From the NCBI GenBank assembly GCA_025360005.1, contig JANYDA010000012.1:1-41439 (forward strand): a DNA stretch of 41,439 nt. Reading direction: 5' to 3'. The translations under genes and the position numbers were made by a program. Origin of the DNA: Fibrobacteria bacterium (lineage in GTDB: Bacteria > Fibrobacterota > Fibrobacteria > UBA11236). Below are positions 10,386-16,353 of this stretch, piece by piece. The notes beneath the pieces were generated by a model, which did not search any database, was not told where the DNA came from, and was given only the letters and a program-made list of their open reading frames with translations. The stretch's first letter is position 1, and the number at the start of each line of letters is the position of its first letter.

Positions 10386-12170
10386 TTACGGGGCCTGGAA
10401 CTCCAGCAGGGTGGGGTTCAAGCGCTGGCTCTCGAAACACAGCTTGATCCAGTCCGCGTTACGTACCCGGTTCATCACCACCACTTCATCCAGCCAGCCG
10501 ACGAAATCGTATTCGCGCTTATCGGGCGAAAGGATATTGCCATGCCGGCCGATGTAGAAATCAGGGCCCAGGGTATAAGGGATGGGGGCTCTTGCAGCCA
10601 GGTTGCCCTTACTGACCCCGTCCACGTAGACGCGCATGGTATTGCCGTCATATGTGCCCGCCAGGTAATGCCAGGCCGAGTCCAGTACGTTGACTCCGGA
10701 GGTTCTCAGGTTCTGCCAAACCCAGGGGGAGCCCACGTAGGTGAAGAAGAGGATGTTGCCGTCGGGCTCCACGCGCAGACCGTAGGAATCGCCCAGTCCG
10801 GCGATAGTGCCTCCCAGGGAACTGGTGGTCTTGCCGCGGAACCAGGCGGAGATCACCAATTGGTGCGCGGGCCGCAGGGTATAGGAAGGTTGCAGCTTGA
10901 TATAGTCGCCCTTGTCGAAGCCGTGGCCGCGGCCGATGATTCCTTCCGTCGACGGGGAGGAAACCCGATCGTCCCCATTCTGGGCTCCGGGTGTGGCATC
11001 CTTGTAAAGCCCTTTGGCAGCGGTATCGGCGGCCTCTTCCGTCAGATGCCAGGCACCGCCGTATCCGTCCGCGCTGTCGAAAACATTGCGATCGTCGGAC
11101 CGGCCCGGGGCTCCCGCCTTCCCGTAATGCAAGGTCAGGAAATCCGTTCGGCTGTCGCCATGGATGGTATCCAGCTTGATCCAGATCTCGGCTTGCTGCC
11201 CTGCGGCGTCCCAACGCTCCACCTGGTAACGCAGGCGTTTCCCATTGCGGTCGGAGAAACGGACGTCCATTCCGTCCGAAAGCGAGAAATCGAAATTCCC
11301 CTTGTTGAGGCGGATGAGCAGGGGGAAATTCGCGACGGCGCCTTTGACGCCGGCGCCGGAAGCGGTGGTGTTGATCAGGATGCGCCGGGAATAGCGCCAG
11401 GCGGCATAGTCTTCGTCCTCGAAAGAAGCGATATTCATGTCCCCGACGAAAGTGGTGTCGGAACTGTAGGCGGCGACGCCCCCGATTTCACGAGCCTCCA
11501 CCGTCGAGGACGGCACCGAGGCGCGCAGCGTGAAGGAACCTTCCGGCAGGTCCGGGAAGGAAAACTTCCCGGTAGCGGAATCCGCCTTGGCCACCCGATC
11601 CAGGCCGTAGATTTGCACCACCGCTTCCGGGTTCCCCGCCAGATCGCCGTTCACCCGGCCCACTACCACGCCGGTGGGCTTGAGCAGGATGGAATCCAGG
11701 AAGATGGTATCCCGATCGCCCGCGCTGAAATCCCGCACGGACGCGTGCTCGGCGCGGTCATTGGCTTCGATGAGGTAATCGCCCGGCGCCACCGAGTCTA
11801 TCCCGTAATGGCCATTGGCGTCCGTGGCGGTTTCCGCGGAAAGGCGCGCGGTCTTGGGCAATGCCGCCGAGGTGTCCTTGAGGAAGCCGCGCGGCCGCAG
11901 GACTACGCGTGCGCTTACCGCCGGAGAGCCGTCCGGATTGGCAACAAAGCCCACCACCACGCCGTTGGTGGTTTCCGAGGAACCGCCGCCCATCGCCGCC
12001 TCATGGCCGCCGTCGAACAGGCAACCGCCGGCGGCCAAGGCGCAGGCCATCGCCGCCGCCGCGAAAGGACGCATGCCGCGGACTACCGGATGCCCCGGCC
12101 CGCGGAAGGTTAATCGCCGCAGGCCGAGCGGGGGCGGACCGCCGCTAAGGGTTCGCATGCCAGGTTTCAT
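10386..12170 (-). CDS. Surface lipoprotein with carboxypeptidase-regulatory-like repeats, DUF2341 and LamG-like domain
   Basis: A predicted lipoprotein of 594 residues. Its signal peptide core runs from about Met33 to Cys50 (ALAAGGC). Then come two carboxypeptidase-regulatory/prealbumin-like beta domains (starting GVVVGFVANPDGSP and GVVVGRVNGD), a DUF2341 domain (YSRRILINTTASG onwards), and a concanavalin/LamG-like lectin domain near the end (LVISAWFRG, GTYDGNTMRVYVDG, VGWLDEVVVMNR). These parts suggest a cell-surface protein that binds carbohydrate or another polymer. The ATG at 12170 overlaps the TGA of the upstream regulator gene (ATGA) and has GGAAAAGG upstream; a shorter start at 12074 would give a tidier signal peptide. 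No catalytic residues are evident. Confidence 0.82.
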   Translation of the reverse strand: MKPGMRTLSGGPPPLGLRRLTFRGPGHPVVRGMRPFAAAAMACALAAGGCLFDGGHEAAMGGGSSETTNGVVVGFVANPDGSPAVSARVVLRPRGFLKDTSAALPKTARLSAETATDANGHYGIDSVAPGDYLIEANDRAEHASVRDFSAGDRDTIFLDSILLKPTGVVVGRVNGDLAGNPEAVVQIYGLDRVAKADSATGKFSFPDLPEGSFTLRASVPSSTVEAREIGGVAAYSSDTTFVGDMNIASFEDEDYAAWRYSRRILINTTASGAGVKGAVANFPLLIRLNKGNFDFSLSDGMDVRFSDRNGKRLRYQVERWDAAGQQAEIWIKLDTIHGDSRTDFLTLHYGKAGAPGRSDDRNVFDSADGYGGAWHLTEEAADTAAKGLYKDATPGAQNGDDRVSSPSTEGIIGRGHGFDKGDYIKLQPSYTLRPAHQLVISAWFRGKTTSSLGGTIAGLGDSYGLRVEPDGNILFFTYVGSPWVWQNLRTSGVNVLDSAWHYLAGTYDGNTMRVYVDGVSKGNLAARAPIPYTLGPDFYIGRHGNILSPDKREYDFVGWLDEVVVMNRVRNADWIKLCFESQRLNPTLLEFQAP

Positions 12171-13063
12171 CCGGCCTTTTCCGATCCGCCGGGACCGAGG
12201 GTTTTGGAGAGAGGGAATACTTGGAAGTTGCATTGCAGGATGCGATCGGCAGCCGCATCGTTCTTGGCCATTTCCGCGAACTCCTGGCGCAATGCCTTGA
12301 GCCTCTCGCGCATGGCGTCGAAGGTGGCCTGGGAGCAGCTCAAGGTCATGGTGGACGTGTCGCGTTCCCCCTTGGCGAACCGATCCAGCGCCTGCTTGCC
12401 CAGATCGAAGGATTGCGATTGGAAGTTGGCGATGGCCAGGGATCTCCAAGCCTGGCCTGTGGAAATGGTGCTGTCCTTGCGCACGAAGCACCCGTCCGCG
12501 TTCTTTACGATCAAGCTCAACCGATTCAGCAATTCCACCGCCCGCCGGGCTTCCGCCACGGGTATGGCGGGCACCAGCGAACGCGCCAGCTTGGCATAAT
12601 CGTCCTTGAAGGGTTGGATGCCGATCCATTCCCGGATGGCGGAGTAATACCATCGCTCATAGAACTCGTATTGATCGGCGTCGACGATTTTCGCCGAGGT
12701 GCGCTTGAGGCAGATGAGCCGATCGAAGTAATGCTTCTTTTCCTCGTGGGACTTGGCTTGGTTGTAGCTGACCAGCAATTCGAAGTATTCGGCTTCCTGC
12801 TTGTTGAGCTTGAAGGCTTGCGCGAAGCGGAGCACCAGATGCGGGCTGAGATTGCGTTTGCCTTGCAATACCCAGGTGAAGAAGCCCGCCGATTTGAGCC
12901 CGGTCTTTTGCGCCAGGTAGCGATAGGAAAAGAATTTTCCTTTGGATTTCTTTTCCAAATACAAGTCCTGCAGGAACTTCCGGTAGTCCAGGTAGGTATA
13001 GACATTTGTCAGCAGGATAGGGGACACGAAGGCAAATGTAGCGTTCCGGCCGGCTTTGGACAA
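12167..13063 (-). CDS. TIGR02147/DUF4423-family protein, likely transcriptional regulator
   Basis: This 298-residue protein begins with the family hallmark YTYLDYRKFLQDLYLEKK. A helix-turn-helix-like part follows (YRYLAQKTGLKSAGFFTWVLQGKRNLSPHLV is the region; residues about 45-80), then a helical C-terminal domain containing YYSAIREWIG. TIGR02147 proteins form large paralogous sets in Fibrobacter and also occur in Bdellovibrio; their function is not established, but the N-terminal part looks like a DNA-binding domain. The start is uncertain: TTG at 13063 has a weak ribosome site, and the conserved region begins about 20 codons later. A perfect palindrome sits 11 bases upstream. The gene is coupled by ATGA to the surface lipoprotein, suggesting control of or sensing by that protein. 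Confidence 0.85.
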   Translation of the reverse strand: MSKAGRNATFAFVSPILLTNVYTYLDYRKFLQDLYLEKKSKGKFFSYRYLAQKTGLKSAGFFTWVLQGKRNLSPHLVLRFAQAFKLNKQEAEYFELLVSYNQAKSHEEKKHYFDRLICLKRTSAKIVDADQYEFYERWYYSAIREWIGIQPFKDDYAKLARSLVPAIPVAEARRAVELLNRLSLIVKNADGCFVRKDSTISTGQAWRSLAIANFQSQSFDLGKQALDRFAKGERDTSTMTLSCSQATFDAMRERLKALRQEFAEMAKNDAAADRILQCNFQVFPLSKTLGPGGSEKAG

Positions 13064-13073
13064 CGCAAATTTC

Positions 13074-13090
13074 GTTCACTGTTAGTGAAC
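13074..13090. promoter_or_regulatory. Perfect palindrome GTTCACT-N3-AGTGAAC upstream of the TIGR02147 gene, probable operator
   Basis: The two 7-base arms match exactly around the spacer GTT. The site ends 10 bases from the presumed start of the TIGR02147 gene and lies in the divergent intergenic region. It is short, symmetric and not followed by a T-tract, so it looks like a dimeric repressor site rather than a terminator. Autoregulation by the neighbouring protein is an inference. Confidence 0.6.
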
Positions 13091-13397
13091 AAAATTAACG
13101 CGGGGCAAATCCGCTCAAATCATCTTTCACCCCTATTTTAAAGGGCTAAATGGTTTCAATACCAAGATCCCATCCTGGGGAGGTGCTTACATACGGGGTA
13201 ATTACCGTGAACGAAATGCCCGGAGGGAGGCTACTTTTGAGAATGCCGACAGCGGGAGTATCAGCATTCGCACTCCGCTTGAACATTCGTAGACAAATAA
13301 TCACTAAAACAAAAACCGGCCCCGGGATTATCTTAGCGGCCGGTTGTCCGGTGCGGCGCTTATGTATTTGTGGTGAAGCCGGATCCCAAGGAGTAGC
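13091..13397. other. Divergent intergenic region
   Basis: About 300 bases lie between the palindrome and the DUF1080 gene. I see an inverted repeat ACCGGCC (13315-13321) / GGCCGGT (13338-13344) with a 16-base loop, and the ribosome site AAGGAG at 13388-13393. A 92-codon open frame (13150-13428) runs through but looks non-coding. Promoters for both divergent units should lie here; I could not assign -35 and -10 boxes with confidence. Confidence 0.5.
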
Positions 13398-14537
13398 ATG
13401 CCCACTATATCGAATCGCCGCACCTTGATGCGGAATGTCTGCTTGGCCGGGCTCCTCACGGCATTGACGCATTCCCATGCGCGGGCCGAACAGATCACGC
13501 AGGCGCAAAAGGATTCCGGCTGGGTGTCCGCTTTCGATGGCAAGTCATTGAACGGCTTCTATTCCATCCTCGGCAGCGATGCGCCCAACAATGACCCGCA
13601 AACCAATGCGGACGGTACCTTTTCCGTGCGGGCCAGCGACAGCTCTCTCCACGCCAGCGCCAACCGCACCGGGCACATTATCACCAAGAAATTGTATTCG
13701 CATTACCGAGTGCGCATCCGGGAAAAGTTCGATGTGGCCGGGAATCCGGGCCAGAACGCCGGCATGCTCTACCATGTCCGCATCGAGGGCCCGCGCATGG
13801 GCGCCTATCCGCGCTCCATCGAGTATCAGGGTCAGAAGCGCGGCATGGGCGAGATCTGGACCATCAGCAATGTCTGGGTCAATACCACTATCGACGAAAC
13901 CAAGAGCCAGCACCAGTTCAAGCTGGGCGGCAAAATGGTCAATCACGGCAACCCCAACGGGCGCCAATGCCTGGGCAGCTCGGTCCCATACATCGACAAT
14001 GCCTGGAACGTTATGGAGGCCACCGTGCGCGGATCGGACAGCGCCGTCCATTACGTGAACGGGGTGCTGGTTTTCAAATGTTGGAAAATGCGCTGGTCGG
14101 ACAAGGATGATCCCAACGACATGAGTCACATGCTCGGCGAAGGTTCCATAGCCCTGCAAGCCGAAGGCGCGGAAGTATCGTACAAGGATTACATGTTCAT
14201 GGAGCTGGATCCGGCCACCGGCAAGCCGCTTAACGCCAAGCCGGTATTGGCCGGGGAATTCCTGCCGGCGGTCAGAGGCAACCTCCTCCGGGTGGAATCC
14301 AAGGCCGGGGGCTGGTCCATTCATTATGCGTTTCCAACTTGGGATCGATCCCGGGGCGGGAACGGCAGCCTATCCGTCAAAACGTTGGATGGCCGGTTGC
14401 TGGATCAATTGCCGCTCCCCGCTTCCTCCGGCGAAGTCTATTGGCCGGGCTCCGGAAGGGCTTCCGGCTTGCCGGTGATTCTGCGGGAAAACCTTTCCGG
14501 GCTGGCGGTCCTCACCGTAACGCCCGTGGTACGCTGA
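13398..14537 (+). CDS. Secreted DUF1080 (3-keto-disaccharide hydrolase-like) protein with C-terminal beta domain
   Basis: An exported protein of 379 residues. A signal peptide ends near HSHARA (residue ~30). Residues ~38-275 form a DUF1080 (PF06439) beta-sandwich: GWVSAFDGKSLNGFY, then YSHYRVRIREKF, NAGMLYHVR, WNVMEATVRG and HYVNGVLVFK. Some DUF1080 proteins hydrolyse 3-keto-glycosides; others are uncharacterised lectin-like folds. The last ~85 residues form a separate beta domain resembling C-terminal sorting domains, with the segment VKTLDGRLLDQLPLP. The start is supported by AAGGAG at 13388-13393. It is followed 64 bases later by a sugar-dehydrogenase-like propeller gene, suggesting a joint carbohydrate role. 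The substrate is unknown. Confidence 0.85.
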   Translation: MPTISNRRTLMRNVCLAGLLTALTHSHARAEQITQAQKDSGWVSAFDGKSLNGFYSILGSDAPNNDPQTNADGTFSVRASDSSLHASANRTGHIITKKLYSHYRVRIREKFDVAGNPGQNAGMLYHVRIEGPRMGAYPRSIEYQGQKRGMGEIWTISNVWVNTTIDETKSQHQFKLGGKMVNHGNPNGRQCLGSSVPYIDNAWNVMEATVRGSDSAVHYVNGVLVFKCWKMRWSDKDDPNDMSHMLGEGSIALQAEGAEVSYKDYMFMELDPATGKPLNAKPVLAGEFLPAVRGNLLRVESKAGGWSIHYAFPTWDRSRGGNGSLSVKTLDGRLLDQLPLPASSGEVYWPGSGRASGLPVILRENLSGLAVLTVTPVVR

Positions 14538-14601
14538 GCCGCGCGGGATCGCGCGCTCTTGAATGCAATGGATGCGGCATAATTTCAATCCGGGGGAGTC
14601 G

Positions 14602-16353
14602 ATGAAGAAAGCACTATTCAATTTGGTATTGGGCGCCTCGTTCTGCGCCAGGCTGGCGGCCGCCAACCCCTACCCGGAGGTGGGGCTGCATCCTGGCTAC
14701 ACGCTGATGGGCCTGCGGCCCGCTGGTTTTGAACCCAAGGTAACGGGCATGGACTTCATGCCCAACGGAGACATGATCGTGCTGACCTGGCGCGGCCAGT
14801 CCGGGCCGGGCGCCACCCGCGCCGACGGCGTGGCCCTGACCAAATCCTATGACGGCGCTCCCAAACTGTACCGCGTCACCAACACCAGGGGCACGGACCC
14901 CAGCGCCATCAAATACACGGAAATCGGATCCGGTTTCAAGGATGCCCAGGGATTGTGCATCGTGGACGGCAACATCTATGTAGGCGATATCGATCGCGTG
15001 GTCAAGATGGTGGACAAGGACGGCGACGGCGTATACGAGACCCAGCAGGAAATCGGCAAGATCCCTTCCTACATGGGATGGTTCGAATACTCCTTCGGGC
15101 CTGTCTACAAGGACGGAAAGCTCTACATGGCCTTGGCTTCCAACGTCAAGAATTCCGGTTTCCCGGAAAAGCCGCTCGGCAAGGATCGCGGCACCATCGT
15201 CAGCCTCCCCATCGGCGGCGGCACCTATACCGTGGTGGCCACCGGGCTGCGCGCCCCGGACGGCATCGCCATCGGACCGGAAGGGGAAATCTGGGTGACC
15301 GACAACCAGGGCGGTTGGCGACCCTCCAGCCCTTTCATCCAGATCCAGGAAGGGAAATTCTACGGCTATCTGGCCGATGGCACCAGCGTCGCTCCAGGAG
15401 TAACAGTGACCTCCCCGAATCTCTGGGCGCCTTACCGGGATGCCAATGACAGTCCCACCGAACCCAACCTGATGACGGCCGGGCCTTTCAAGGGCCAATT
15501 CTTTTACGGGGACGTGGGCCGCGGCGGCATTTACCGCGCCTTCCTGGAAAAGGTGAACGGCGCCTACCAGGGCAGCATGGTTTCCTTTTCCGGTGGCCTG
15601 GAGTGCGGGGTCCATCGTTTGCGCACGGGGCCCAACGGTGAAATCTACATGGGCGGCATCGGCAACGGGGGTGATTCCAACCAAGGGTGGAACGGGAAAA
15701 CCTTCGGCTTGCAGAAGCTTGTTCCCAACGGGACCATGGCTTTTGAAATCCTGGCCACCCACTCGCGCGCCACCGGGATGGAGTTGGAGTTCACCTTGCC
15801 CGCGGGAACGGAAGCGGAGAATGCGGCTAACTATGTAGTCAAGCAATGGTCCTATATCCCGGTGGCAAGCTACGGCGCGGGCAAGCAACCCGATCAGCCC
15901 CGTACCGTCAAGAGCGTCACGCTTTCTTCGGATCGCAAGCGGGCCTTCCTGCAAATCGATGGCCTCAAGACCGGCATGATGGTGGGCATCGTAGCCAACA
16001 ATCTCAAGTCGCAGGACGCCAAGCCGCTCTGGTACAACAAGACATGGTATACCCTGAACGCCATCTCCCCCTCGCAACCGTTCGAGCCTTCCGTGGAAAT
16101 AAAGATCGCTGCCGCCAAAGCGCCCGCTGCCTTGGACCTGCAGGTGGCTCGCTTCCAGGATCGAATCAAGGTCACTTTGCCGAATGGTTCCTCTTATAAA
16201 GTCGAGTTGCTGGATTTCCAAGGCCGCTTGATTGGCGGGGAGGCATCCGCCACCGGCAGCGCGGAAATCATCCTCCCACGCGCAATCTCGGGATTGCATG
16301 TCCTCAGGGCCCAAGCCGCCGGAAAAACGCTTTCGCATACCATGGTGTTCTGA
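14602..16353 (+). CDS. Secreted beta-propeller protein, glucose/sorbosone-dehydrogenase-like, with C-terminal sorting-like domain
   Basis: A 583-residue protein with a signal peptide (MKKALFNLVLGASF, cleavage near LAAA). Propeller strands follow, recognisable from repeated patterns such as FMPNGDMIVLTWRG, GLRAPDGIAIGPEGEIWVTDNQG and RTGPNGEIYMGG. These resemble PQQ-dependent sugar dehydrogenases and the related propellers found with DUF1080 in Planctomycetes and Verrucomicrobia. Residues from ~510 form a beta domain with VELLDFQGRLIGG and ISGLHVLRAQAAGK, the pattern of type IX (T9SS) type-A sorting domains. The frame extends upstream, but GGGGGAG at 14592-14598 fixes the ATG at 14602. Whether it binds PQQ is untested; no heme motif CxxCH is visible. 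Confidence 0.8.
   Translation: MKKALFNLVLGASFCARLAAANPYPEVGLHPGYTLMGLRPAGFEPKVTGMDFMPNGDMIVLTWRGQSGPGATRADGVALTKSYDGAPKLYRVTNTRGTDPSAIKYTEIGSGFKDAQGLCIVDGNIYVGDIDRVVKMVDKDGDGVYETQQEIGKIPSYMGWFEYSFGPVYKDGKLYMALASNVKNSGFPEKPLGKDRGTIVSLPIGGGTYTVVATGLRAPDGIAIGPEGEIWVTDNQGGWRPSSPFIQIQEGKFYGYLADGTSVAPGVTVTSPNLWAPYRDANDSPTEPNLMTAGPFKGQFFYGDVGRGGIYRAFLEKVNGAYQGSMVSFSGGLECGVHRLRTGPNGEIYMGGIGNGGDSNQGWNGKTFGLQKLVPNGTMAFEILATHSRATGMELEFTLPAGTEAENAANYVVKQWSYIPVASYGAGKQPDQPRTVKSVTLSSDRKRAFLQIDGLKTGMMVGIVANNLKSQDAKPLWYNKTWYTLNAISPSQPFEPSVEIKIAAAKAPAALDLQVARFQDRIKVTLPNGSSYKVELLDFQGRLIGGEASATGSAEIILPRAISGLHVLRAQAAGKTLSHTMVF

Follow-up and report, generated by a model that had tools for sequence, protein, structure and literature searches.

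TIGR02147/DUF4423 proteins of Fibrobacterota as candidate autogenous activators of regulator–lipoprotein operons

We consider it reasonably probable that the TIGR02147/DUF4423 proteins are phylum-wide autogenous activators, each of which would drive its own regulator–lipoprotein operon from a private operator. This proposes a concrete function, with named DNA targets, for a role-less family found in nearly all genomes of a plant fiber-degrading phylum. TIGR02147 was detected in 157 of 168 Fibrobacterota genomes and in 0 of 14 control genomes, and the family names (TIGR02147, Fsuc_second; DUF4423) assign no function. In the literature searched, TIGR02147 was not mentioned, a DUF4423 protein appeared only as a table entry, and no operator, lipoprotein linkage, or activator geometry was found described for either. 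Such operons would account for how these bacteria select among dozens of surface lipoproteins when few regulators have been recognized near their fiber-degrading genes, as noted for cellulases (PMC3079729). The protein studied here is encoded in a window of 41,439 nucleotides (the whole stretch of DNA analyzed) and belongs to a large paralogous family of Fibrobacterota, with 32 DUF4423 genes in the source genome. Family members for comparison were drawn from the window's genus, from other families of its class, and from other classes, all within Fibrobacterota.

The regulator–lipoprotein pair

The gene at 12167–13027 on the minus strand encodes a full-length TIGR02147 protein, as first predicted: it scored 288.8 bits against the NCBIfam model (cut-off 50) over model positions 3–271 of 272, and it also matched DUF4423 (Pfam). 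Its reading frame is open to a TTG at 13063, but this codon is unlikely to be the start and reads better as the beginning of a −35-like hexamer, TTGTCC (13058–13063, minus strand), located 17 bp from a −10-like hexamer, TACATT (13035–13040, minus strand). The start is probably GTG 13027, which lies 11 codons ahead of the conserved YxDYR, as in other family members, and has an in-frame GTG counterpart in a 73%-identical orthologue. Only 13 nt separate the first base of the −10 from this GTG; therefore, the regulator mRNA would be nearly leaderless. A scan of the region with the sigma-70 consensus returned nothing above shuffled sequence, which fits a weak promoter and by itself gives it no support.

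Among TIGR02147 loci of this genus and of other families, short spacings of just 6–17 nt between the −10 and the start codon are frequent, which suggests that many transcripts lack a leader.

The perfect palindrome GTTCACTGTTAGTGAAC (GTTCACT-GTT-AGTGAAC, also readable as GTTCAC-N5-GTGAAC) is present exactly as reported at 13074–13090 and is the proposed private operator. It had been placed 11 bases from the regulator start; with GTG 13027 as the start and TTG 13063 as part of the −35, it instead lies about 46 bp ahead of the start codon and just upstream of the −35, with its center at about −54. The symmetry extends to two 11-bp arms, ATTTTGTTCAC / GTGAACGAAAT. The corresponding pattern, GTGAACRAAAT, has three matches in the window, all within 13069–13217: the half-sites GTGAACGAAAT (13069–13079, minus strand) and GTGAACAAAAT (13085–13095, plus strand) and a third half-site, GTGAACGAAAT, at 13207–13217 (plus strand), which is the sole further window match at up to 1 mismatch. 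This third copy, a possible extra contact, lies between the regulator and a divergent gene (13398–14537, plus strand) whose secreted product has a 3-keto-disaccharide hydrolase domain; control might therefore extend to the divergent operon. In 41 kb, a 7-3-7 perfect palindrome on its own would be unremarkable; the palindrome with its extension within 150 bp upstream of a gene was matched by 0 of 60 shuffles. We regard it as above chance because palindromes recur across the family.

The locus of the close orthologue (genome G005, also as JAHFCH010000104.1) preserves the ATGA overlap, the lipoprotein, and the neighborhood, including the 3-keto-disaccharide hydrolase-domain gene and a secreted NHL-repeat protein gene (14563–16353, plus strand), in a changed gene order. 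The upstream DNA has otherwise diverged, but TTTGTTCACTAACAG is identical, so that one half-site and the spacer are exact; the second half-site is degenerate (GAGTAC). By hand count, the palindrome is about 42 bp from the −10 (TAGATT), the same spacing as in the window. A scan of genome contigs with the window–orthologue pair found only this one close orthologue.

The next ORF, at 10386–12170 on the minus strand, bears out the predicted DUF2341/LamG lipoprotein: it has a lipobox followed by CarboxypepD_reg-like, DUF2341, and Laminin_G_3 domains, and its ATG is overlapped by the regulator TGA in an ATGA at 12170–12167 (minus strand). With translation from the ATGA, the signal peptide would be about 50 residues long, and the window lipoprotein may begin at an internal ATG at 12074 (MRPFAAAAMACALAAGGC); in the orthologue, the overlapping ATG yields a normal signal peptide.

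Linkage to a lipoprotein gene also holds in relatives. Across Fibrobacterota, a lipobox ORF was next to the TIGR02147 gene in 165 of the 184 family members with enough downstream sequence (about 90%), 88 of these 165 modules have a 4-bp overlap, and the regulator is first throughout. By set, the counts were 92/98, 30/30, 21/27, and 74/81, with 30/30 representing genus g4 (Fibrobacter-type), which is outside the 184 and likewise shows the linkage; related sequences inflate some family counts. Under control scoring, 86/98 family genes versus 31/320 other ORFs had a lipoprotein next, and 9/61 adjacent control pairs did so, with control rates of 10%–15% overall. The original proposal of a DNA-binding protein controlling its own operon with a surface lipoprotein is well supported. 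A CarboxypepD_reg-like domain was present in 40 of 56 downstream lipoproteins, the remainder of the protein being variable; LamG was found in 20 and DUF2341 in 17.

The first 30 residues after the Cys of the downstream lipoproteins contain a common motif, (K/R)(V/L)AGG..(S/T)ET.(N/S), which is possibly a sorting or assembly signal.

An AlphaFold2 model of the window regulator (pLDDT 91, pTM 0.75) predicts an N-terminal helix-turn-helix (HTH), two linker helices, a winged-helix-like unit (H127–138, H145–151, H158–170, and two strands), and two long helices. The HTH may be of the lambda repressor-like Cro/C1 type, with model helices at the right places, and Pfam HTH_3 matched only 3 of 63 members; a profile search with the N terminus gave weak matches to HigA antitoxins and phage CI (E 0.04–0.8). 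Foldseek returned winged-helix fragments only and found no whole-chain structural relative (best E 0.25). The layout bears on two other readings of the gene pair. RRNPP systems (PlcR-PapR, Rgg-Shp, and PrgX) pair an HTH regulator with an adjacent gene for an exported product in local feedback, and some pheromones, such as those of PrgX, derive from lipoproteins. By this analogy, and given that a lipoprotein follows in about 90% of cases, the C-terminal part of the regulator might sense a peptide from the downstream lipoprotein's signal peptide. We rejected this as very improbable because partner and fold do not fit: RRNPP loci encode a short pheromone precursor and a regulator with C-terminal TPRs, whereas here the partner is a lipoprotein and the modeled middle is winged-helix-like, the AlphaFold2 model has no C-terminal TPR domain, and the 50 best fold matches listed include no RRNPP structure. 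A toxin–antitoxin-like pair with a HigA-like antitoxin, which the faint resemblance of the HTH to HigA (E 0.04) and the gene overlap might suggest, is scarcely credible and was also set aside; the partner is no small cytoplasmic toxin but an exported lipoprotein of large size that bears adhesin-like extracellular domains, and the regulator always comes first.

Private candidate operators and co-variation with the helix-turn-helix

The expectation that the same palindrome would precede paralogues was not borne out, and the shared-palindrome idea was rejected: GTTCACT-N3-AGTGAAC is single copy in the genome, where the only other matches, two with 2 mismatches, were no more than a reversed control pattern produced. 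What recurs is the position and the form of the site. In 186 genes aligned on the YxDYR codons, strong palindromes peaked at −100 to −90 (18 in the 10-bp bin versus 0.9 in shuffles), and 20 of 29 perfect 6-N4/5-6 palindromes in this peak start with GYT compared with 11 of 63 elsewhere. The general site is GYTNNN-N4/5-NNNARC, in which the outer bases are fixed and each regulator has inner bases of its own; the window palindrome is a perfect instance. This form occurred in 66 of the 186 genes, versus 5–11 in shuffles and 4–7 in windows inside genes, so a clear operator by this rule is found in only about a third of genes. Windows further upstream gave 20–23, somewhat above background, and appear to hold some background or additional palindrome-like sites. 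Direct repeats were tried as a general operator form and rejected, being modestly above shuffles with no common spacing outside genus g4. In 49 close pairs, identity was 0.7–0.96 inside the operator and about 0.3–0.4 in the flanks. In pattern searches, on which the genome-wide counts rest, four operators (that of the window and those of three paralogues) were each single copy in 5 Mb.

Operator bases also track the residues of the adjacent gene's HTH. Whether base 2 of the operator is C or T goes with whether helix 2 carries His or Tyr/Phe (16/6 versus 6/35, Fisher p = 1e−5), an association that was retained with one gene per 55% cluster (10/5 versus 4/17, p = 0.006), and base 4 gave the strongest signal with a recognition-helix column; because these columns were picked after scanning 162 combinations, with partial correction for descent, the single p-values are only indicative. 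Between clusters, HTH similarity and operator similarity were weakly correlated (0.16), above 500 of 500 permutations. At the level of sequence, the family thus appears to have what is expected of autogenous regulators, namely a conserved operator at the regulator's own promoter that is matched to its recognition residues. The family's diverged HTH–operator pairs would also form a natural set for reading out a recognition code.

Some groups recur across genomes, such as NSPSFLK with GTACAC-N5-GTGTAC and NSAPYFKF with GTTTAC-N4-GTAAAC. The latter palindrome has two further intergenic copies, each with one mismatch, near secreted-protein genes; one adjoins a 3-keto-disaccharide hydrolase-domain gene, like the divergent neighbor in the window. 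These copies suggest that some members may act beyond their own operon. They could also be taken to mean that the palindromes are bound by another factor, or are promoter-strength elements, and have nothing to do with TIGR02147. We judge that improbable, given that the operators are single copy and that private sequences co-vary with the HTH residues of the very gene they adjoin.

Near-perfect GTTTAC-N4-GTAAAC sites were also seen in intergenic DNA by secreted-protein genes at L179:3813, L180:5010, L181:5024, and L182:7161, the genes being a 3-keto-disaccharide hydrolase (twice), a PD40 lipoprotein, and a glucose/sorbosone dehydrogenase. These sites may be remote targets of a single TIGR02147 protein, or they may belong to the regulon of another factor.

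Activator-like site geometry, possible autogenous repression, and genus g4

Class I activators bind near −61.5, or whole turns away from it, at promoters with a weak −35, and a repressor usually covers the promoter. The position of the family operators was measured in 102 genes with a clear −10, which was chosen independently; palindromes were required to have at least 5 of 6 pairs and were subject to no sequence rule. In 38 of the 102 genes, a 6-N4/5-6 palindrome was centered 48–51.5 bp upstream of the −10, compared with 4–8 genes in most other windows; at 58.5–62 bp there was a second peak, of 15 genes. Spacings of about 50 bp, also 60 bp, and in a few cases near 40 bp keep the site at a fixed helical phase, and the main position puts the operator center at about −62 from the transcription start when the first base of the −10 is taken as −12. 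The −35 is near random in the family (2.5 of 6 matches versus 2.1 by chance). The window palindrome, centered 41.5 bp from its −10, is about 8 bp short of the family position of about 50.

This arrangement resembles CRP class I promoters, such as lac with its CRP site at −61.5, in that the family operator center is about 49.5–50 bp from the −10, moves in helical-turn steps, and accompanies a weak −35. Unlike CRP, the TIGR02147 fold is unrelated, and each regulator has its own site and would act on its own operon. There is also a parallel with the XRE-DUF397 pairs of Streptomyces, in which XRE-type regulators likewise exist as numerous paralogues with a partner gene behind each one, and Scr1/Scr2 is reported to act positively; there the partner is a small DUF397 protein, whereas the TIGR02147 partner is a lipoprotein (PMC6262351).

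The main rival is an autogenous repressor that would bind the same private palindrome and hold the operon down until a signal releases it, as many XRE-type regulators repress their own operon. The operators and their co-variation with the HTH fit this equally well, the N-terminal profile matches are to HigA antitoxins and phage CI, and half-sites adjoin the −10 in some genus g4 genes. However, in the window's genus and the other sampled families, the site lies upstream of a poor −35 at a fixed helical phase, which is an activator pattern. We therefore prefer autogenous activation, given that the site sits ahead of a poor promoter, centered at about −62 and with a second position one turn off, and consider repression rather unlikely.

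Under autogenous activation, a regulator dimer would occupy its cognate palindrome, which lies immediately ahead of a promoter whose −35 is poor, and, from about −54 in the window and about −62 in most relatives, would recruit RNA polymerase as class I activators do. The resulting mRNA would carry the regulator and, by translational coupling, the surface lipoprotein, so that the pair would form a positive feedback loop and each module could be bistable; the family would have multiplied in this form to the roughly 30–60 modules per genome seen in the window's genus. In this scheme, binding as a dimer and the coupling of translation are our inference, as are bistability, an inducing signal, and the sign of regulation (activation, not repression). 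The modules are likely to be insulated from one another because the outer operator bases are shared, whereas the inner bases and the recognition residues have diverged together. A more far-reaching version, which we regard as possible although doubtful, is that each Fibrobacterota cell holds dozens of insulated, self-activating, and perhaps bistable switches, each committing the cell to one surface lipoprotein, so that the surface would be varied epigenetically without DNA rearrangement and three or four inner operator bases plus a few recognition residues would serve as the address.

Genus g4 departs from this geometry, with the −62 position found in 1 of 40 sampled genes. One orthologous group there (upstream of L075–L093, L151, L160, and L162) carries GTGGAC/GTAGAC (GTRGAC) half-sites, which are about tenfold enriched relative to the remaining loci, are often direct repeats 23–24 bp apart, and in places lie near the −10. 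In another g4 group (upstream of L141–L150, L152–L156, L158, and L161), the element GTGTTCCC is repeated, with a copy near the start codon and another about 100 bp upstream.
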